DNA of 64,000 bases, from assembly GCF_004363315.1 (NCBI RefSeq), contig NZ_SNYL01000009.1, forward strand, positions 1 to 64,000. Direction: 5' to 3'. Source of the stretch: Tepidicella xavieri. GTDB taxonomy: Bacteria; Pseudomonadota; Gammaproteobacteria; Burkholderiales; Burkholderiaceae_C. A program made the translations under genes and the position numbers. The notes below the pieces were generated by a model that was not told the origin of the DNA, made no database searches, and saw only the letters and a list, made by a program, of their open reading frames with translations. Positions within the stretch are counted from its first letter, which is position 1. Each line of letters begins with the position of its first letter. This document shows, piece by piece, positions 28,709 through 39,207 of this stretch.

Positions 28709-29989
28709 ATGAATGCCCCTGCCCCCAAAACCAGCCTGTGTTTTTTGCTGGCGGCCAAACGCTGCGAGATGGCCGACCTGCAACAACTCGCACAGACCAG
28801 CGGCCTGGTTCGCCGGACCGCCGCGCTGATTCATGAATTGCAACGTGAGCGCGGGCTGTCCAACCTCTACGCCGCCTCGCTCGGGCAAGCCTTTGTCGCC
28901 GAACGCCGTTTGCAACTGGCCCGCAGCGACGCGGCCAGCACGGCCCTGCGCGCTGGCTTCGACACGCTGGACACCGCCCCCCCTCGGCATGGAGCCCGTC
29001 TGTACAGCCGAATCGCTTTTGCCCTTCACGGGCTAGAAACATTGCCGCGACTGCGCCTTGAAGTCGAAGGACTGCGCGCACCGCCTGCATCGCTGACGGC
29101 CGCCTATACCCGGCTGATCGCCAGCTTGCTCGCAGTCGTCTTCGAGGCGGCAGACACAGCCACCGATCTGGCTCTGTCGCGCCGACTGGTGGCCCTGTTC
29201 CACCTGATGCAAGGCAAAGAGCTGGCCGGACAGGAACGGGCAACCGGTTCGGCCATGCTGGCCACCGGACGGGCAGACGGGGATGCCCAGCAACGCTTGC
29301 TGCACCTCATCGAATCCCAAGACCGCTGCCTGCAGGTGTTTGAAACCTTTGCTGATGAAGAAATACTCGCTCTGTGGCAAGCAAGTCGTTCTGCGCCGTT
29401 GCAGGCCGACATCGAGCGCCTGCGTCGCCAGCTGTGCAACACCCCACCCGGACAACCGCTGGACAGCCAGCGCAGCGCCACCTGGTTCGACACCTGCAGC
29501 CAGCGCATGGATGAAATGCGCCAAGTGGAAGAGCGGCTCACCGACAGCTTGGTCGAACAATGCCAAAGCCGGCTGAGACGCGTCGCTGACGAAATGCACG
29601 AGATCCAAGCCCTCCAGGCCCGGCTCGACGGCGACGCCAGTGCGCTCGACGATCACGCTGCGGCGCCACTGTTCCACGCGCCTGATCCAGCAGCCCCCAA
29701 TCCCGCGCCGCCCATAGGGCTGGCGCTGGAGAAGTCGGTCCTGGAACTGGTGCAGGATCAGGCCACGCGCTTGCAGGCGCTATCGGCCGAACTGGAAACG
29801 GTGCGCGCCAGCCTGAACGAACGCAAGCTCATCGAGCGTGCCAAAGGACTGCTGATGGCCCATCAGCAACTCAGCGAAGAAGCTGCACACAAAGCCCTGC
29901 GCGACCTGGCGATGCGCCAGAACAAACGCATGGTCGATGTGGCAGAAGCCGTGCTGTCGATGGCGTCCCTGCTCTCCCCTCGGAACTGA
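28709..29989 (+). CDS. nasR: NasR-type nitrate-responsive antiterminator (NIT-ANTAR)
   Basis: A 426-residue protein with an N-terminal NIT (nitrate/nitrite-sensing) four-helix domain, about residues 30-270 ([19 protein letters not shown] is its opening helix), and a C-terminal ANTAR RNA-binding domain at about 365-425 ([20 protein letters not shown] then [20 protein letters not shown]). In Klebsiella, NasR binds nitrate and dimerises to grip a two-hairpin leader RNA, releasing a terminator upstream of the nas genes. The matching RNA element lies directly downstream at 30131-30223, before the nitrate transporter. The start ATG lacks a clear Shine-Dalgarno sequence. Confidence 0.94.
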
Positions 29990-29990
29990 C

Positions 29991-30005
29991 GCACCAAGCC
30001 CGTGC
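29991..30005 (+). promoter_or_regulatory. NtrC-like enhancer site upstream of the nas promoter
   Basis: GCAC-CAAGCCC-GTGC (29991-30005) is the GCAC-N7-GTGC core of the NtrC consensus, with the fuller left arm GCACCA. It lies 2 bp after the nasR stop and is centred about 127 bp upstream of the predicted sigma-54 start. That distance suits an enhancer. It would place the nitrate operon under nitrogen limitation control by NtrBC. Found by eye; binding is unproven. Confidence 0.6.
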
Positions 30006-30098
30006 AACGTCCCGGTTTGGTTCAGGCTTTTCCCCATTCACGGGCACCGCAGATGCGTTAACCATCCTCATCTGGCCATCCGACCGCAATTTACTGCT

Positions 30099-30113
30099 TG
30101 GCATGAAAGCTGC
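30099..30113 (+). promoter_or_regulatory. Sigma-54 (-24/-12) promoter of the nitrate assimilation operon
   Basis: TGGCAT-GAAAG-CTGC (30099-30113) matches the sigma-54 consensus TGGCAC-N5-TTGC with exact spacing of the invariant GG (30100-30101) and GC (30112-30113). Transcription should begin about 12 nt later, near 30125. The ANTAR hairpin P1 begins only about 6 nt after that, so the start point fits the RNA element well. Confidence 0.7.
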
Positions 30114-30130
30114 TTGTGCTCTGACAGAAA

Positions 30131-30188
30131 CTTGAGCCAACGGCGGCGCAAGTCAACAAGCAACGCAAGCACCAGGACAACGGCGTCC
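30131..30188 (+). promoter_or_regulatory. ANTAR target RNA: paired hexaloop hairpins P1 and P2
   Basis: Two hairpins carry the same hexaloop AACGGC, with the A at loop position 1 and G at position 4 that ANTAR proteins require. P1 (30131-30152) is CTTG-A-GCC / GGC-G-CAAG around loop 30139-30144. P2 (30175-30188) is GGAC / GTCC around loop 30179-30184. They are separated by 22 nt. P2 shares bases 30179-30188 with the left arm of the terminator hairpin, so NasR stabilising P2 would block termination. This is the known two-hexaloop nas leader arrangement. Confidence 0.85.
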
Positions 30189-30223
30189 CCGACCCCCTCG
30201 ATGGGTGTGTCGTGGACGCCGTT
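30179..30223 (+). terminator. NasR-controlled leader terminator
   Basis: AACGGCGTCC (30179-30188) pairs perfectly with GGACGCCGTT (30214-30223). The 25-nt loop contains further GAC/GTC and CCC/GGG pairing. It competes with P2 of the ANTAR element for its left arm. The downstream tract TCGTGTTTG is only moderately U-rich, so the terminator may be leaky or help may be needed. Confidence 0.75.
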
Positions 30224-30264
30224 CGTGTTTGCACGATCCGCATCTCTCATTTGCAGGAGCAGCC

Positions 30265-31545
30265 ATGACCGTCCTTCCAACCGCCACCGCCGCGTCCCAT
30301 CCCGATCGAGCCGATGGCCTCACCCGGCGCGACGCCTTGCGCCAAGGGATCGCATTGAGCGGCGGGGCATTGTTCGCCAGCCTGGGGCACCATGGCGTGT
30401 GGGCCGCCGGCTCCGACGCCCCCGAAAAGAAAGAAGTCCGTATCGGCTTCATTCCCTTGACAGACTGCGCCAGCGTGGTGATGGCCTCTGTACTGGGTTT
30501 CGACGAAAAATACGGCGTCAAGATCATCCCGACCAAAGAAGCGAGTTGGCCCGGCGTGCGCGACAAACTCGTCAACGGCGAACTTGACCTCGCCCACGTG
30601 CTATATGGCCTGGTTTATGGCGTGCACATGGGCACCGCCGGCCCTAAAAAAGACATGGCGGTGCTCATGACGCTCAACCGCAACGGCCAGGCCATCACCC
30701 TGAGCCGACGTCTGGCCGACGCTGGTGCACGCAACGTCAACGAACTGGCCAAATTGATGGCCTCAGACCGGCGCGAATACACCTTTGCTCAGACCTTTCC
30801 CACTGGTACGCATGCCATGTGGCTGTACTACTGGCTGGCCTCGGCCGGCATCCACCCTCTGCGCGACAGCAAAGTCATCACCGTTCCCCCGCCACAGATG
30901 GTGGCCAACATGCGGGTAGGCAATATGGACGGCTTCTGTGTCGGCGAACCGTGGAACCACCGCGCCATCCTCGACGGCATTGGGGTCACGGCTGCCACCA
31001 CGCAAGATGTCTGGAAGGACCACCCGGAGAAAGTGTTGGGCGCCACGGCCGAATTCGTCCAGAAGAACCCCAATACCTGTCGCGCCGTCATGGCAGCCAT
31101 TCTGGAGGCCAGCCGCTGGATTGACGCCGGACTGCAGAACAAACTGCGCATGGCTGAAACCATTGCCGCTCGCGCCTATGTCAACACCAGCGTCGATGCC
31201 ATCAACCAGCGCATCCTGGGACGCTACCAAAACGGGCTGGGACGCACCTGGGATGACCCTGATCACATGAAGTTCTACGACGGCGGCGCCGTCAACTTCC
31301 CCTATCTGAGCGATGGCATGTGGTTCCTCACCCAGCACAAGCGCTGGGGCCTGATCAAAGAACACCCGGACTATTTGAAGATCGCGCGGGAAATCAACCG
31401 CATCGATCTGTACCGGCAGGCCGCCACCGCCACACAGACCCCTTTGCCCCCCAGTGAAATGCGCAGCAGCAAGCTGATGGATGGCGTGGTGTGGGACGGC
31501 AAAGAGCCCGCCCGATACGCCGACAGTTTCACCGTGCGCGCCTGA
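30265..31545 (+). CDS. nrtA: Nitrate ABC transporter substrate-binding protein
   Basis: A 426-residue NrtA/NasF-type binding protein that captures nitrate (and nitrite) in the periplasm. Its N-terminus has a Tat-like signal, T20-R-R-D-A-L-R, followed by a hydrophobic core (IALSGGALFASL). The mature part begins EVRIGFIPLTDCASVVMA. Family blocks include FTQTFPTGTHAMWLYYWLASAG-like sequence near residue 175 and MRVGNMDGFCVGEPWN near residue 215, where nitrate is bound. The start at 30265 follows an AGGAGC ribosome site at 30255-30260. It is the first structural gene after the NasR leader. The symbol nasF is an equally valid choice. Confidence 0.95.
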   Translation: MTVLPTATAASHPDRADGLTRRDALRQGIALSGGALFASLGHHGVWAAGSDAPEKKEVRIGFIPLTDCASVVMASVLGFDEKYGVKIIPTKEASWPGVRDKLVNGELDLAHVLYGLVYGVHMGTAGPKKDMAVLMTLNRNGQAITLSRRLADAGARNVNELAKLMASDRREYTFAQTFPTGTHAMWLYYWLASAGIHPLRDSKVITVPPPQMVANMRVGNMDGFCVGEPWNHRAILDGIGVTAATTQDVWKDHPEKVLGATAEFVQKNPNTCRAVMAAILEASRWIDAGLQNKLRMAETIAARAYVNTSVDAINQRILGRYQNGLGRTWDDPDHMKFYDGGAVNFPYLSDGMWFLTQHKRWGLIKEHPDYLKIAREINRIDLYRQAATATQTPLPPSEMRSSKLMDGVVWDGKEPARYADSFTVRA

Positions 31546-31565
31546 TCGCGCAACAGGAGCCTTCC

Positions 31566-32510
31566 ATGGTCAGCGCCACCCTCAAAACCAGGCTGGAAGC
31601 GGTCGATGCCCCAGCCCAACCTGCAACGCTTCATCCCATCAAGGCCAGTCTCCCCACGTGCTCAGGGGAGGAACGCCATCCCCCTCCACGTCTCGATACG
31701 CCCTACCCTGAGCGTACCTACCGGGTCCAGCCCGGAGAATTGGTCAACCGGATCGTGCCACCGTTGCTCGGCCTAGCCCTGCTCGTGGGGCTATGGTATT
31801 TGGTATCGGTATCCAGCGGCAGCGGCATACCCACGCCGCTGCAGACCTGGCAACAAGCCCAGGCCATTTTTGCCGACCCTTTCTACCAAAACGGCCCCAA
31901 TGACCAAGGAATAGGCTGGAACGTGCTGATGTCTCTGCAACGCGTGGGGATGGGCTTCGGGCTGGCGGCATTGGTTGGCATCCCCCTGGGCTTTGCAATC
32001 GGCCGCTTCGACTTCCTGGGCCGCATGTTCAACCCCATCATCAGCCTGTTGCGCCCGGTCTCGCCTCTGGCTTGGTTGCCCATCGGCTTGTTGGTCTTCA
32101 AAGGCGCGAACCCGGCGGCCATTTGGACCATTTTCATCTGCTCGATCTGGCCGATGGTGATCAACACCGCCGTGGGGGTACAGCGGGTTCCACAGGACTA
32201 CCTCAACGTCGCCCGCGTATTGGACCTGAGCGAATGGAAAGTGATCACCCGCATCCTGCTGCCTGCCGTGCTGCCCTACATGCTTACCGGCGTCCGGCTG
32301 GCCGTCGGCACGGCCTGGCTCGTCATCGTTGCCGCCGAGATGCTGACCGGCGGCGTCGGCATCGGCTTCTGGGTATGGGACGAGTGGAACAACCTGAACG
32401 TGACCAACATCATCGTCGCCATCTTCGTGATCGGCACCGTCGGTCTGGTGCTGGAACAGGCCCTGATCAAACTCGCCACGGCATTCACATTCGAGGAAGT
32501 GAAGTCATGA
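31566..32510 (+). CDS. nrtB: Nitrate ABC transporter permease
   Basis: A 314-residue inner-membrane permease of the NrtB/SsuC type with six predicted helices. An unusually proline-rich cytosolic N-terminus of about 60 residues precedes helix 1 (IVPPLLGLALLVGLWYLVS). The EAA-type coupling loop is in VGVQRVPQDYLNVARVLDLS ahead of ILLPAVLPYMLTGVRLA. An AGGAG at 31554-31558 supports the ATG at 31566. Its stop overlaps the ATP-binding gene (ATGA), so the two subunits are translationally coupled. It forms the nitrate importer with NrtA and NrtD. Confidence 0.95.
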   Translation: MVSATLKTRLEAVDAPAQPATLHPIKASLPTCSGEERHPPPRLDTPYPERTYRVQPGELVNRIVPPLLGLALLVGLWYLVSVSSGSGIPTPLQTWQQAQAIFADPFYQNGPNDQGIGWNVLMSLQRVGMGFGLAALVGIPLGFAIGRFDFLGRMFNPIISLLRPVSPLAWLPIGLLVFKGANPAAIWTIFICSIWPMVINTAVGVQRVPQDYLNVARVLDLSEWKVITRILLPAVLPYMLTGVRLAVGTAWLVIVAAEMLTGGVGIGFWVWDEWNNLNVTNIIVAIFVIGTVGLVLEQALIKLATAFTFEEVKS

Positions 32511-33310
32511 ATGAGGCCAAATACATCCAGCTCGAAGGCGTGGCCCAGACCTTCAAGACAAAAAATGGCCCGTTCGTGGCTCTGCGCAATATCGATCTGA
32601 CGATTGCCAAAGGCGAATTCGTGGCCCTGATCGGACACTCCGGCTGTGGCAAATCCACCCTGCTCAATCTGATCGCCGGTCTGACGATCCCCACCGACGG
32701 CGTGCTGCTGTGCGCCGGCCGCGAAATCACTGGCCCCGGACCGGAACGCGCCATGGTGTTTCAGAACCACTCGCTGCTGCCCTGGCTGAGTTGTTTCGAC
32801 AACGTGTTCCTGGGGGTGGAACGGGTCTTTGGCCCCACCGAACCTCTGGCCCGTTTGCAGGAGCGCACCCATGCCGCTCTGGAATTGGTGGGTCTGGCGC
32901 ACGCAGCCTGGAAGCGGCCTGGCGAAATCTCGGGTGGCATGAAGCAGCGCGTAGGCATTGCCCGCGCCCTGGCCATGGCACCGAAGGTGCTGCTGATGGA
33001 CGAGCCCTTTGGCGCACTGGATGCGCTGACCCGGGCCAAGCTCCAAGACGAGTTGCTCGACATCGTGGCCCGCACCCAGAGCACGGTGGTCATGGTCACA
33101 CACGACGTGGACGAAGCCGTCTTGCTGGCCGACCGCATCGTGATGATGACCAATGGCCCGGCCGCCACGATCGGTGAAATCCTGCCGGTGACGCTTCCTC
33201 GTCCCCGCCATCGGGTCAGCTTGGCCGAGGACCCCACCTACCTGCATTGCCGCAAGGCAGTGATCGACTTTCTTTACACCCGCCAGGCCCACGTGGAAAA
33301 AGCGGCCTGA
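32507..33310 (+). CDS. nrtD: Nitrate ABC transporter ATP-binding protein
   Basis: A 267-residue ABC ATPase. It carries Walker A GHSGCGKSTLL, the Q-loop in MVFQNHSLLPWLS, signature ISGGMKQRVGIARAL, Walker B VLLMDEPFGALDA and switch VTHDVDEA. The D-loop sequence GALDALTRAKLQDEL is typical of nitrate/sulfonate importers (NrtD/NasD/SsuB). The ATG overlaps the permease stop by the ATGA tetranucleotide. A C-terminal NrtA-like fusion, seen in the NrtC type, is absent. The nirB gene follows after 53 nt. Confidence 0.96.
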   Translation: MNEAKYIQLEGVAQTFKTKNGPFVALRNIDLTIAKGEFVALIGHSGCGKSTLLNLIAGLTIPTDGVLLCAGREITGPGPERAMVFQNHSLLPWLSCFDNVFLGVERVFGPTEPLARLQERTHAALELVGLAHAAWKRPGEISGGMKQRVGIARALAMAPKVLLMDEPFGALDALTRAKLQDELLDIVARTQSTVVMVTHDVDEAVLLADRIVMMTNGPAATIGEILPVTLPRPRHRVSLAEDPTYLHCRKAVIDFLYTRQAHVEKAA

Positions 33311-33363
33311 GCCGGCAACGCCCCGAAAGCGTTATGGCCTCAATGGCGAAATGGAGCTGATCC

Positions 33364-35877
33364 ATGGACATGCAAGTCAAATCCCGCAACAAAATGAAAC
33401 TGGTGATGGTCGGCAATGGGATGGCCGGCGTACGCACCCTGGAAGAGTTGCTCAAACTGGCCCCAGACCTTTACGACATCACTGTCTTCGGTGCCGAGCC
33501 GCACCCCAACTACAACCGCATCCTGCTTTCCCCCGTGCTGGCCGGCGAGCAGACGCTGGACGACATCATCCTCAATGACTGGGCATGGTACGCCGAGCAC
33601 GGCATCACGCTGCATGCCGGTTGGACCGTCACCGAAGTGGACCGGCAGCGCCGCACCGTCAGCGCCAGCAACGCACAGGGCGAACACCTGCAGGTGAGCT
33701 ACGACCGGTTGATCCTGGCCACCGGCTCCAACCCCTTCATCCTCCCCATCCCGGGCCACGACCTGCCGGGCGTGCTTGCATACCGCGACATCGCCGACAC
33801 CCAAGCCATGATCGAAGCAGCCAGGAAATACCGGCACGCCGTGGTGATTGGCGGAGGTCTGCTTGGCCTGGAAGCGGCCAACGGCCTGATGACGCGGGGC
33901 ATGGAGGTGACCGTGGTGCATGCCGCCCCTTGGCTGATGGAGCGCCAACTCGACGAAGCCGCCGGGCGCATGCTGCAAGCCGCGCTCGAATCCAGGGGGC
34001 TGAAGTTTCGCCTGCAGACGCAAACAGCGGCGCTTCTCCCCCATGAGGGAGGCCGCGTCGGAGCCGTGCTGTTCCAAAACGGCGATCAAATCCCTGCCGA
34101 CCTGGTGGTGATGGCGGTGGGCATCCGCCCCAACACTGCACTGGCCGAGCGCATGCGACTGCACGTCAATCGGGGCATCGTCGTCAGCGACACCCTGCAA
34201 ACCGTCACCGACCCACGCATCTACGCGGTGGGCGAATGCGCCAGTCACCGCGGCATCGCTTATGGCTTGGTGGCCCCCCTGTTCGAGCAGGCCAAAGTGC
34301 TGGCCAACCATCTGGCCGAATTCGGCATCGGTCGGTACGCGGGTTCACAAACATCCACCAAGCTGAAAGTCACTGGCATCGACCTGTTTTCCGCAGGCAA
34401 CTTCATGGGGGGCGCCGGCTGCGAGGAAATCCTGCTGAGCGACCCTGTGGGTGGCATCTACAAAAAACTCGTCATTCAAGGCGATCGCCTCGTGGGCGCC
34501 TGTCTGTATGGTGACACCGCAGACGGTGCGTGGTACTTCAAACTGCTGCGCGAAGGCCGCCATATTGGGGACTTGCGCGACCGGCTCATGTTTGGTGAAT
34601 CGAACCTTGGTGACACGGGCCACCAAGGTCACCAACAGGCCGCCGCCATGGCCGACAGCGATGAAGTCTGTGGCTGCAACGGCGTGACCAAAGGTGCCAT
34701 CTGCCAAGCCATCCGTGACAAAGGGCTATTCACGCTGGAAGATGTGCGCAAACACACCAAGGCCAGCGCGTCCTGTGGCTCTTGCACCGGGCTGGTTGAG
34801 CAATTGCTCATGTTCACCGCTGGCGGCGACTACAGCGCCGCGCCCAAGAAAAAAGCCTTGTGTGGCTGTACCGACCACAGCCATCAGGAGGTGCGTGATG
34901 CCATCCGCGAGCGCCGACTGCTGACCATTGCGGACACCTTCGCCACCCTGGGCTGGAAAACCCCGAACGGCTGTGCCACCTGCCGCCCAGCGGTCAATTA
35001 CTATCTGATCAGCACCTGGCCTCAGGAAGCCAAGGACGATCCCCAGAGCCGGTTCATCAACGAACGCAGCCACGCCAACATCCAGAAAGACGGCACGTAC
35101 AGCGTGGTGCCTCGCATGTGGGGCGGGGAAACCAGCGCCGCCGAATTGCGCCGTATCGCCGACGTGGTGGACAAGTACCAAATCCCCACCGTCAAGGTCA
35201 CCGGCGGCCAGCGCATCGACCTGTTGGGTGTGAAAAAGGAAGACCTCATCCACGTCTGGCGCGACTTGGGCATGCCCAGCGGACACGCTTACGCCAAGGC
35301 GTTGCGCACCGTCAAGACCTGCGTCGGCAGCGAATGGTGCCGTATGGGCACTCAGGACTCGACCCAGATGGGCAAAGACCTCGAGCGCGCACTGTGGCGC
35401 ATGTATGCGCCCCACAAGGTCAAGCTCGCCGTCAGCGGCTGCCCCCGCAACTGTGCGGAGGCGGGCATCAAAGACGTGGGCATCATTGGTGTCGATTCGG
35501 GCTGGGAGATTTACATCGCCGGCAACGGCGGCATCAAGACCGAGGTGGCCCACTTTCTGTGCAAGGTCAAGACCGCCAGCGAAGTGCTGGAGTACACCGG
35601 TGCCTTTCTGGAGCTGTACCGTCAGGAAGGCTGGTATCTGGAGCGCACCTGTCACTACGTGGCGCGCGTGGGTCTCGCCCACATCAAGGCAAAGATCCTG
35701 GACGACCCAGCGGGCCGCAAAGGCCTCTGGGAGCGGCTGCAAGCCGCTCTTGAAGGTCAACCCGATCCCTGGGTGGAATTTGCCCAGGCCGCGGTGGACC
35801 TTCGGCAGTTTGAACCTGTGATCTGCGTCACCCCGCCCTCCACCCCAGAAACCCGTAGCCAAGGAGCCCTGGCATGA
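33364..35877 (+). CDS. nirB: Assimilatory nitrite reductase large subunit
   Basis: An 837-residue NAD(P)H nitrite reductase that reduces nitrite to ammonium. The FAD domain begins VMVGNGMAGVR (about 14-25), and the NAD-binding fold has VVIGGGLLGLEAANGL (about 160-175). A BFD-type [2Fe-2S] domain has C436-x-C438 and C471-x2-C474, with a second C500/C502 and C537/C540 set. The C-terminal sulfite/nitrite reductase half has the siroheme-[4Fe-4S] cysteines C653-x5-C659 and C693-x3-C697. It needs siroheme, which the downstream cobA helps make. It overlaps nirD by 4 nt. Confidence 0.97.
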   Translation: MDMQVKSRNKMKLVMVGNGMAGVRTLEELLKLAPDLYDITVFGAEPHPNYNRILLSPVLAGEQTLDDIILNDWAWYAEHGITLHAGWTVTEVDRQRRTVSASNAQGEHLQVSYDRLILATGSNPFILPIPGHDLPGVLAYRDIADTQAMIEAARKYRHAVVIGGGLLGLEAANGLMTRGMEVTVVHAAPWLMERQLDEAAGRMLQAALESRGLKFRLQTQTAALLPHEGGRVGAVLFQNGDQIPADLVVMAVGIRPNTALAERMRLHVNRGIVVSDTLQTVTDPRIYAVGECASHRGIAYGLVAPLFEQAKVLANHLAEFGIGRYAGSQTSTKLKVTGIDLFSAGNFMGGAGCEEILLSDPVGGIYKKLVIQGDRLVGACLYGDTADGAWYFKLLREGRHIGDLRDRLMFGESNLGDTGHQGHQQAAAMADSDEVCGCNGVTKGAICQAIRDKGLFTLEDVRKHTKASASCGSCTGLVEQLLMFTAGGDYSAAPKKKALCGCTDHSHQEVRDAIRERRLLTIADTFATLGWKTPNGCATCRPAVNYYLISTWPQEAKDDPQSRFINERSHANIQKDGTYSVVPRMWGGETSAAELRRIADVVDKYQIPTVKVTGGQRIDLLGVKKEDLIHVWRDLGMPSGHAYAKALRTVKTCVGSEWCRMGTQDSTQMGKDLERALWRMYAPHKVKLAVSGCPRNCAEAGIKDVGIIGVDSGWEIYIAGNGGIKTEVAHFLCKVKTASEVLEYTGAFLELYRQEGWYLERTCHYVARVGLAHIKAKILDDPAGRKGLWERLQAALEGQPDPWVEFAQAAVDLRQFEPVICVTPPSTPETRSQGALA

Positions 35878-36266
35878 CCGCCCAACCCCCCGAATGGACA
35901 TACATCTGCCGGATCGACGATATTCCCGTGCTCGGGTCGCGCCGGGTAGCACGCCCCCGCGGGCTCGATATCGCCCTGTTCCGCAACGCCGACGACGAAG
36001 TCTTCGCCCTGCTCGATCGCTGCCCCCATAAAGGGGGGCCACTGAGTCAAGGCATGGTTTTTGGCCACAGCGTGGCCTGCCCGCTGCACAACTGGACCAT
36101 CGGCCTGCGCGACGGACAAGCCGCTGCACCGGACGAAGGCTGTACCCCGCACTTCCGCGTTCAGATCCAAAACGGTGAAGTGTGGATGGATGCTCAGGAA
36201 CTGGCCCACCATGCCACCGACCTCTCGCGCCCGGTCGCGGGCCCCCGGACACGATGCCACCCATGA
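35874..36266 (+). CDS. nirD: Nitrite reductase small subunit with Rieske ligands
   Basis: A 130-residue Rieske-fold protein partnering NirB. It contains CPHKGGPLSQG and CPLHNWTI, the C-x-H and C-x2-H ligands of a Rieske [2Fe-2S] cluster. E. coli NirD lacks these ligands, so here the small subunit should carry a functional cluster, as in NasE-type proteins. The ATG overlaps the nirB stop (ATGA). The tail after residue 105 (HHATDLSRPVAGPRTRCHP) is longer than usual and of low complexity. The nitrate reductase gene starts 37 nt later. Confidence 0.93.
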   Translation: MTAQPPEWTYICRIDDIPVLGSRRVARPRGLDIALFRNADDEVFALLDRCPHKGGPLSQGMVFGHSVACPLHNWTIGLRDGQAAAPDEGCTPHFRVQIQNGEVWMDAQELAHHATDLSRPVAGPRTRCHP

Positions 36267-36303
36267 CCTGACGCATCCCCAGTGTCTTTTGGAAGATATC
36301 CCC

Positions 36304-39207
36304 GTGAGAACCCCACCCCCCTCGAACACCCTCCCCCTGCGGACCACCCGCTCCACCTGCCCCTACTGCGGCGTGGGTTGCGGGGTGCTGATCGACAGCG
36401 TGAGCGAGCGGATCGTCGGGGTGCGTGGCGACCCGGACCATCCCGCCAATCGCGGGCGGCTATGTACCAAGGGCTCCACCCTGCACCACACCGCAGACCC
36501 GGCGGTTGCCGCGCAGGTCCGCTTGCTGCAACCGATGCGCCGTGACCGACGAGGCAGCGCCCCGCAACCCTTACGCTGGGACCAGGCCCTGGACTGGGCC
36601 GCCAACCGATTGGCCGAGATCGTGTGCCGTCATGGCCCCGACGCCGTGGGCTTCTACATCAGCGGACAGCTGCTCACCGAAGACTATTACGTGTTCAACA
36701 AACTCGCCAAAGGGTTGTTAGGCACCAACAACATCGACACCAACTCCCGCTTGTGCATGAGCAGCGCCGTGGCCGCTTACAAGCTCACACTGGGAGCCGA
36801 CGCCCCGCCGGCCTGCTACGCCGACATCGACCATGCCCACTGTCTATTCATCGCAGGCAGCAATACTGCCTGGGCTCATCCGGTGTTGTTTCGTCGCATC
36901 GAAACGGCCAAAGCCCGACGGCCCGAGATGCGCATCATCGTGGCCGACCCGCGCCGCACCGACACCGCCAGTCTGGCCGATCTGTATCTGCCGCTCCAAC
37001 CCGGCACCGACGTGATGCTCTTTCATGGATTGCTGCACATCATGCTGACCGAAGGCTGGGTGGACAGCACCTACATCGAACAGCACACCACCGGTTTTAC
37101 CGAACTGCGCCAACTGGTACAGAGCTACACCCCTGCTGCCGTGGCACAGGTCTGCGGCCTGTCCCCGGACAATCTTTACACCGCTGCCCGCTGGTTCGCG
37201 GGCGTCCCCGATGGTAAACCAGCCACCTCGCTTCCCAGCGCGCAGCGACTACCTACCCTCAGCCTCTATTGCCAGGGGCTGAACCAGTCCAGCAGCGGCA
37301 CCGACAAAAACGCCTGTCTCATCAACCTGCACCTGGCCTGCGGCCAAATCGGGCGCCCGGGCGCTGGACCGTTTTCTCTGACGGGTCAACCCAACGCCAT
37401 GGGCGGACGCGAAGTCGGCGGCCTGGCCAATCTGCTCAGCGCCCATCGCGATCTGTCCAACCCTGCCCACCGGGCTGAAATGGCTGCTCTATGGCAATTG
37501 CTCCCTGGCACCGATCTGCCCGCTTTGCCTGGCAAGACCGCCGTCGAGATGTTCGAAGCCGCGGCCGACGGTCAGATCAAAGCCTTGTGGATCGCCTGCA
37601 CCAACCCGGCCCAGTCCATGCCTGACCAGGCCACCGTGCGCCGCGCGCTGCAACGGGCTGAACTGGTCATCGTGCAGGAGGCCTTTGCCACCTCTGCCAC
37701 TTGCGACTGGGCCGACCTGCTGCTGCCCGCCACCACCTGGGGAGAAAAAGAAGGCACCGTCACCAACAGCGAACGGTGCATCAGCCGCGTAAGAGCCGCC
37801 GTCCCTCCGCCACGTGCCGCCGATGGCACAGGCCCGCGACACGACTGGCGCATCGTGGTCGATCTGGCCCGTCGGTTGGAGCAGCGTTTGCCACGGCGCA
37901 GCCATGGCACCTTGTTCCCGTACGACAACCCGCAAGCGATCTGGAACGAGCATCGGGAAAGCACCCGTGGCCGGGATCTGGACATCACCGGCCTGAGCTA
38001 CACCATTTTGGAAACCGCACCTCAACAGTGGCCCTTCCCCGAAGGACGAAGCACCGGGACACCGCGCCTGTATGAAGATGGTCGCTTTCCCACTGCCGAC
38101 GGCCGTGCCCGGTTTGTCGCCTCCCCTTATCGCCCACCCGCAGAGGACCGGAGTGCGCGATACCCCTATGCCATGACCACAGGTCGCCTGCGCGACCAAT
38201 GGCACGGCATGAGTCGCACCGGCACGCTCGGCACCTTGTTCGGCCATATTCCCGAACCCCAATTGTGGATGCACCCGCAAGACATGGCTGAATCGGGGCT
38301 GAAACCCGGACAGCTCGTGCGCGTGCAAAGCGCGCGCGGCAGCCTCGTGCTGCCTGCCCACCCCTCCCATGAACTGCATCGCCGTCAGTGCTTCGTCCCC
38401 ATGCACTGGGGCAGTGAGCACATCGGCGGACGCTCGGACGAAGGCACGGCACTGGCCGGTGTCAATGGCCTCACCACGTCAGCTTTCTGTCCGCAAGCCA
38501 AGCAGCCAGAGCTCAAACACACCGCCGTCCGCATTGACCCCGTCTATCTGCCCTGGACCGTACAAGCCCTCGCCTGGCTGCCCGCCCACAGCGCTTTGCT
38601 GACCTTGCGCCAGTTGCGCCCGCTGCTCACCCAATTCGATTACGCCGTTTGCGTTCCCTTTGCGCCCCCCTCTGCTCAAGCGCCTGCATCGAACACACCT
38701 GTTGGTTTGTGGTTCCAAGCGGCTCATGCGCAAGCCCCTGAGCCGACGTTGTCGTGGCTGGAGCCTCTGTGCGCAGCCTTGCAGCTCGATCACCCTGAAA
38801 CCCTGCGCTACGACGATGCGCCGCGTCAGCAGCACCGTCGCATCCGCTTGACCGGCCCCGAAGGCCGACACCTGCAAAGCTTTCTGTTCTCAGGCGACAG
38901 TCGCTCTGCCACCTGGTTGTCACACCTGCTGCGCGACACCACCCCCTGCCCCTTCACGGGCCCCATCTTGCTGCAATCCATTCAACGCCCTCCTGGCAAG
39001 CTACCCGTCCAACGCGGCAAAACCATCTGCAATTGCCTGGGTGTGACCGAGGCCGCCATTCTCGACTGCCTGGCGGGGCTGGATTGCGCCGCCAGCGAGC
39101 ATCTGCACATCCTGCAAACACGTCTGGGCTGCGGCACCCAATGCGGTTCCTGCCTGCCCGAACTCAAACGACTGACCCATCAGCAGTCAAACAATCTTTC
39201 TATATAA
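36304..39207 (+). CDS. nasA: Assimilatory nitrate reductase catalytic subunit with C-terminal BFD domain
   Basis: A 967-residue molybdopterin oxidoreductase that reduces nitrate to nitrite in the cytoplasm. The N-terminal [4Fe-4S] site is C19-x2-C22-x3-C26 with C54 in LCTKG. Mo-bis-MGD domains follow (SSGTDKNACLINLHLACGQI, PCTNPAQSMPD-like IACTNPAQSM). The C-terminal tail carries a BFD [2Fe-2S] domain, C909-x-C911 and C947-x2-C950, as in Klebsiella NasA. The start is a GTG at 36304 with GGAAG at 36291-36295; homology begins soon after. No separate NADH:nitrate reductase electron-transfer subunit (NasC) is adjacent. Confidence 0.96.
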   Translation: MRTPPPSNTLPLRTTRSTCPYCGVGCGVLIDSVSERIVGVRGDPDHPANRGRLCTKGSTLHHTADPAVAAQVRLLQPMRRDRRGSAPQPLRWDQALDWAANRLAEIVCRHGPDAVGFYISGQLLTEDYYVFNKLAKGLLGTNNIDTNSRLCMSSAVAAYKLTLGADAPPACYADIDHAHCLFIAGSNTAWAHPVLFRRIETAKARRPEMRIIVADPRRTDTASLADLYLPLQPGTDVMLFHGLLHIMLTEGWVDSTYIEQHTTGFTELRQLVQSYTPAAVAQVCGLSPDNLYTAARWFAGVPDGKPATSLPSAQRLPTLSLYCQGLNQSSSGTDKNACLINLHLACGQIGRPGAGPFSLTGQPNAMGGREVGGLANLLSAHRDLSNPAHRAEMAALWQLLPGTDLPALPGKTAVEMFEAAADGQIKALWIACTNPAQSMPDQATVRRALQRAELVIVQEAFATSATCDWADLLLPATTWGEKEGTVTNSERCISRVRAAVPPPRAADGTGPRHDWRIVVDLARRLEQRLPRRSHGTLFPYDNPQAIWNEHRESTRGRDLDITGLSYTILETAPQQWPFPEGRSTGTPRLYEDGRFPTADGRARFVASPYRPPAEDRSARYPYAMTTGRLRDQWHGMSRTGTLGTLFGHIPEPQLWMHPQDMAESGLKPGQLVRVQSARGSLVLPAHPSHELHRRQCFVPMHWGSEHIGGRSDEGTALAGVNGLTTSAFCPQAKQPELKHTAVRIDPVYLPWTVQALAWLPAHSALLTLRQLRPLLTQFDYAVCVPFAPPSAQAPASNTPVGLWFQAAHAQAPEPTLSWLEPLCAALQLDHPETLRYDDAPRQQHRRIRLTGPEGRHLQSFLFSGDSRSATWLSHLLRDTTPCPFTGPILLQSIQRPPGKLPVQRGKTICNCLGVTEAAILDCLAGLDCAASEHLHILQTRLGCGTQCGSCLPELKRLTHQQSNNLSI

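Follow-up and report, generated by a model that had tools for sequence, protein, structure and literature searches.

Known ANTAR leaders and the leader after nasR

The general model of ANTAR antitermination, including the A and G at loop positions 1 and 4 (A1 and G4) and the overlap between the P2 hairpin and the terminator, was described by Ramesh et al. 2012 (PMC3369931). The NasR protein of Klebsiella oxytoca requires nitrate or nitrite to bind the region of the nasF leader that holds the two hairpins, and NasR raised in vitro readthrough of nasF from 5 to 52% (PMC7496416). In Pseudomonas, transcription of the nirBD leader, NalA, starts with sigma54 and NtrC, and NasT opens the leader (reviewed in PMC12830290).

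The leader that follows nasR in Tepidicella xavieri is, with little room for doubt, one of the NasR/ANTAR leaders in which nitrate governs antitermination; it stands before nrtABC-nirBD and would form an AND gate for nitrogen shortage and nitrate. The leader is real, the original prediction read it correctly, and it is ordinary: leaders of the same kind are already known from Klebsiella and Pseudomonas. It shares with NalA, which is presumably the RNA that Rfam calls P11, a sigma54/NtrC promoter, two hexaloops, and a P2 loop and 3' arm that serve as the left arm of the terminator, but Pseudomonas switches its leader with NasS-NasT, whereas NasR is a sensor made of one protein. The Enterococcus eut leaders, which work with EutV, have the same ANTAR two-hairpin antiterminator logic, but they belong to a two-component system (EutVW) for ethanolamine and have short linkers of 5-12 nt. 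With nasF and NasR of K. oxytoca, the locus shares a NIT-ANTAR NasR, two A1/G4 hexaloops with closing C-G pairs, a terminator that excludes P2, and a nitrate-assimilation operon (PMC3369931, PMC7496416). The make-up of the operon is different, as nasR is followed here by nrtABC-nirBD-nas; the two leaders were compared by their descriptions.

Genes and hairpins at the locus

The coordinates in Table 1 refer to the window, which is the whole 64-kb stretch of DNA that was analyzed. As expected from the original prediction, nasR lies directly upstream of the leader; it encodes a nitrate/nitrite sensor with a NIT domain fused to an ANTAR domain, and no other protein in the genome matches ANTAR. The leader heads a nitrate-assimilation operon. 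The first gene past it, nrtA, encodes a protein with a Tat-like signal, and the molybdopterin oxidoreductase at the far end matches the NasC and NasA models with E values of ~1e-131 or better, yet scores below their cut-offs.

Table 1. Features of the nasR leader and its neighborhood
Feature	Position	Strand	Details
nasR	28709-29989	+	NIT (residues 39-281, Pfam E 3e-53) fused to ANTAR (364-416, Pfam E 1e-18)
NtrC-type operator, predicted	29991-30005		GCAC-N7-GTGC; centre ~127 bp upstream of predicted start
sigma54 promoter, predicted	30098-30114	+	TTGGCATGAAAGCTGCT; GG 30100-30101, ten bases, GC 30112-30113
P1 hairpin	30130-30153	+	ACUUG-A-GCC [AACGGC] GGC-G-CAAGU, loop 30139-30144
P1-P2 linker	30154-30174	+	21 nt; without stable hairpin in the Tepidicella genus
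P2 hairpin, antiterminator	30175-30188	+	GGAC[AACGGC]GUCC, loop 30179-30184
Terminator hairpin	30179-30223	+	Left arm 30179-30188, right arm 30214-30223; excludes P2
U-rich tail, short and imperfect	30224-30235	+	CGUGUUUGCACG
nrtA, nitrate-binding protein of ABC transporter	30265-31545	+	Pfam NMT1_2, E 3e-99
nrtB, nrtC, nirB, nirD	31563-36266	+	NCBIfam TIGR01183, TIGR01184, TIGR02374, TIGR02378, all over cut-offs
Molybdopterin oxidoreductase, assimilatory nitrate reductase-like (nasA/nasC type)	36271-39207	+	NCBIfam NasC/NasA models

Both hairpins present the hexaloop AACGGC with A1 and G4, and every base is where it had been predicted. The loops are closed by C-G pairs (C30138-G30145 in P1 and C30178-G30185 in P2), and both hairpins follow the ANTAR rules of hexaloop, A1, G4, and closing C-G. 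P1 was originally placed at 30131-30152. The hairpin is one pair longer and contains an A.G mismatch (30135/30148) that had been left out.

The perfect 10-bp terminator stem that had been proposed, with bases shared with P2, consists of 10 Watson-Crick pairs. Past a C.U mismatch, 30190-30193 pairs with 30209-30212 and adds 4 more pairs. The left arm of the stem coincides exactly with the P2 loop and the 3' arm of P2, and P2 thereby overlaps and excludes the predicted intrinsic terminator. The U-tail is weak: CGUGUUUGCACG is poorer in U than the tails of relatives, whose tracts are longer, typically UUGUUUUU. With such a tail, termination could be leaky or aided by another factor.

The computed energies are -10.4 kcal/mol for P1, -5.0 kcal/mol for P2, and -22.9 kcal/mol for the terminator hairpin, and the stability of the whole leader is 4.6 standard deviations beyond dinucleotide shuffles. 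When we folded nascent RNAs, the minimum-energy fold was P1 with P2 for RNAs ending at 30188, 30195, or 30213, an unrelated fold for the RNA ending at 30200, and P1 with the terminator for the RNA ending at 30223. In these folds, P2 forms before the right arm of the terminator is transcribed.

We also searched for a strict pattern of two C-G-closed A1/G4 hexaloops and a 10-pair stem that starts exactly at the P2 loop. The leader after nasR is its single occurrence in the window; the minus strand of the window and 30 first-order Markov copies have none. A search for P2 alone (GGACAACGGCGTCC) was close to background, with many matches in controls, so we did not use it as evidence.

Upstream of the hairpins, the sequence suggests a sigma54 promoter (GG-N10-GC) with a candidate NtrC site 100-200 bp farther upstream, and transcription is predicted to start at ~30125. 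The genome encodes sigma54, and its ntrC scores over the cut-off. Among the leaders of relatives, 82/83 are preceded by a sigma54 element, and 63/83 have the NtrC pattern upstream, where shuffles would give 0.4.

Covariation of the two exclusive folds

In an alignment of 12 leaders, 90.3% of cells are paired, and there are 33 two-sided changes versus 12.0 in shuffled alignments; related leaders share history, so counts of this kind, here and below, are not numbers of independent events. P1 has two-sided changes at 7 of its 9 pairs, and a set of 84 leaders gives the same picture. The terminator covaries too, in both sets, while GGACAACGGCGTC of P2 is invariant across the 12 leaders. A1 and G4 are nearly fixed in both loops.

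Comparison across leaders directly supports the two exclusive folds at the third position of the P2 loop. This base is unpaired in P2 but pairs with the right arm of the terminator, and the pair is C-G in 58 leaders and A-U in 24 (82/84 together). Only the terminator fold explains this constraint. Positions 1 and 4 of the same loop, on which protein binding depends, are A and G in 84/84 leaders, although they are paired in the terminator. Such a pattern is expected where one segment serves two folds that exclude each other.

Distribution of the leader

We built a covariance model from 12 leaders, including the one from T. xavieri. With this model, the leader was found beside nasR in essentially all relatives. 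In the T. xavieri genome itself, the model gave one strong match (E 1e-22, with the window sequence being part of the model), and this is the genome's single copy. A weaker match on the minus strand at the same place is due to the terminator palindrome. A plasmid collection gave no match to the leader.

Across the family, the model matches 114 of 251 genomes. An ANTAR protein is encoded by 112 of these 114 genomes, versus 89 of the 137 genomes without the leader (Fisher p 1e-12). G328 and G498 are the only leader-bearing family genomes in which we did not detect an ANTAR protein. Gaps in these assemblies, which have about 340 and 380 contigs, could explain this, or the weak match in G498 could be due to chance. 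Within the genus, G301 has both nasR and the leader, and G300 has neither.

Of 80 nasR loci from named relatives, 79 have the leader after the gene; at the remaining locus, the contig stops 219 nt past the nasR match. The nearest nasR loci are from Burkholderiales and Tepidimonas metagenome genomes, followed by Macromonas, Hydrogenophaga, Variovorax, and Polaromonas. Leaders are also found near many distant NasR proteins (30-43% identity) across the class. The NasR leader, which has been studied in one Klebsiella species, is thus a standard cassette in the Comamonadaceae and related bacteria, in the order nasR, NtrC site, sigma54 promoter, two hexaloops, terminator, and nrtA. Existing Rfam models miss this cassette at their thresholds.

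Some relatives carry the leader a second time, farther down the nitrate cluster (L116:9963-10081, L148:5600-5711, L150:9719-9828, and L157:10719-10833).

Two features had been presented as distinctive, and neither is. Identical loops are found in 14/37 and in 29/83 leaders, so we rejected them as a special feature; as they are common in the family, we ascribe no special meaning to them. At most, identical loops would suit a dimer that binds one loop after the other (PMC8934654). Similarly, the equality of the terminator's left arm with the P2 loop and 3' arm is a family-wide rule, and it holds for Rfam's P11 as well.

Rfam models and alternative explanations

At the gathering score, Rfam gave nothing relevant for the window and seven relatives. 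A search of Rfam for an ANTAR element had been suggested; no family of that name matched, but two other families did, below their thresholds. P11 (RF00625) scored 29.2 bits (E 1.6e-4, gathering 70) and aligns exactly to the P1, P2, and terminator hairpins, and narK RNA (RF03032) scored 24.5 bits (gathering 43.2) and aligns to the same hairpins. Because both scores are below gathering, the leader is not filed under either entry, though the anatomy is the same. The absence of an ANTAR covariance hit had been named as a refutation; it holds here in the literal sense only, given these two matches and the results of the model built from relatives. A search of the whole genome with RF03032 gave no match, but it gave none in the controls either.

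Like the T. xavieri leader, narK RNA has a sigma54-like GGCAC...TTGCT, then P1 as GCC-AACGGC-GGC, and then GACAAAGACGUC, in the same order; the difference is that the Rfam model draws neither P2 nor the terminator. The drawn structure of P11 contains the P1 and terminator hairpins. When aligned to 30087-30220 of the window, both models start with a stretch that matches the sigma54 promoter. For narK RNA, this stretch is the first 30 positions of the model, which are probably a signal in DNA, not RNA. Both P11 and narK RNA look like ANTAR nitrate leaders.

The name of the top Rfam match, "Pseudomonas sRNA P11", raises the question of whether the hairpins are mainly a free small RNA, with antitermination as a secondary role. 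A leader terminated at about 100 nt would indeed build up as a short RNA when nitrate is absent. However, the position of the leader between nasR and the operon is constant, and the Pseudomonas nirBD leader NalA is itself a leader that NasT opens (PMC12830290), which makes a primary small-RNA role highly unlikely. Another explanation is that the hairpins are a plain intrinsic terminator for nasR, which they directly follow on the same strand, and that their likeness to ANTAR hexaloops is accidental. We consider this barely credible, as a predicted sigma54 promoter sits between nasR and the hairpins, and conservation across genera extends to both loops, to P1, and to the promoter, with A1 and G4 nearly fixed. 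The NasR/ANTAR reading given in the original prediction agrees with the ANTAR rules, the nrtABC-nirBD genes downstream, the co-occurrence of the leader with nasR, and the covariation of both folds.

Proposed mechanism

We infer the start site, termination, and the nitrate-dependent binding of NasR as follows. When ammonium is short, NtrC at its predicted operator would activate the sigma54 promoter, and the RNA would begin near 30125. P1 and then P2 would fold during synthesis. Without nitrate, transcription as far as 30223 would complete the right arm (30214-30223), which would displace P2 and form the terminator, and nrtABC-nirBD would stay silent. With nitrate or nitrite, NasR would expose its ANTAR domains and grip the hexaloops of P1 and P2 at A1 and G4. 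By holding P2, NasR would block the terminator.

Spacing of the hairpins and a linker hairpin in relatives

The distance between the loops falls into two clusters, at 33-36 nt (about 34) and at 22-24 nt (about 23). Most leaders with the long spacing have a small covarying hairpin in the linker, of the type GUCU-YCCC-AGAC (for instance, L117:6485-6606, L119:6492-6613, and L172:6434-6557). In this hairpin, 85.7% of cells are paired, versus a mean of 78.3 (maximum 81.8) for shuffled alignments, and there are 18 two-sided changes versus 4.5 (maximum 11); slid controls reach 13-53%. In several other leaders with long spacing, the hairpin at this place is shifted, and leaders with a distance of about 23 nt are without the inserted length. 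The Tepidicella genus has the long spacing, yet no linker hairpin.

We found no description of this linker hairpin in the literature that we searched, which mostly did not include subscription papers. It is possible, although we hold this tentatively, that the linker hairpin absorbs the extra 11-12 nt and that this third hairpin sets the geometry for ANTAR binding. For the eut leaders of Enterococcus faecalis, whose linkers are 5-12 nt, lengthening the linker abolished control. The 21-nt linker of T. xavieri exceeds these, which speaks against the antitermination reading, but most relatives share its spacing. The natural variation in P1-P2 spacing and at the third position of the P2 loop provides ready tests of how ANTAR proteins hold the two loops.

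Finally, the linker in the Tepidicella genus may have an additional, unproven pairing: GCAAGCAC (30165-30172) could pair with GUGUUUGC in the terminator tail (30225-30232), which would lengthen the terminator. A pairing of 7-9 bp is found in all four members of the genus, including the near relatives L105-L107, but for any one sequence this is no more than chance can give, as 7-35% of shuffles do as well.
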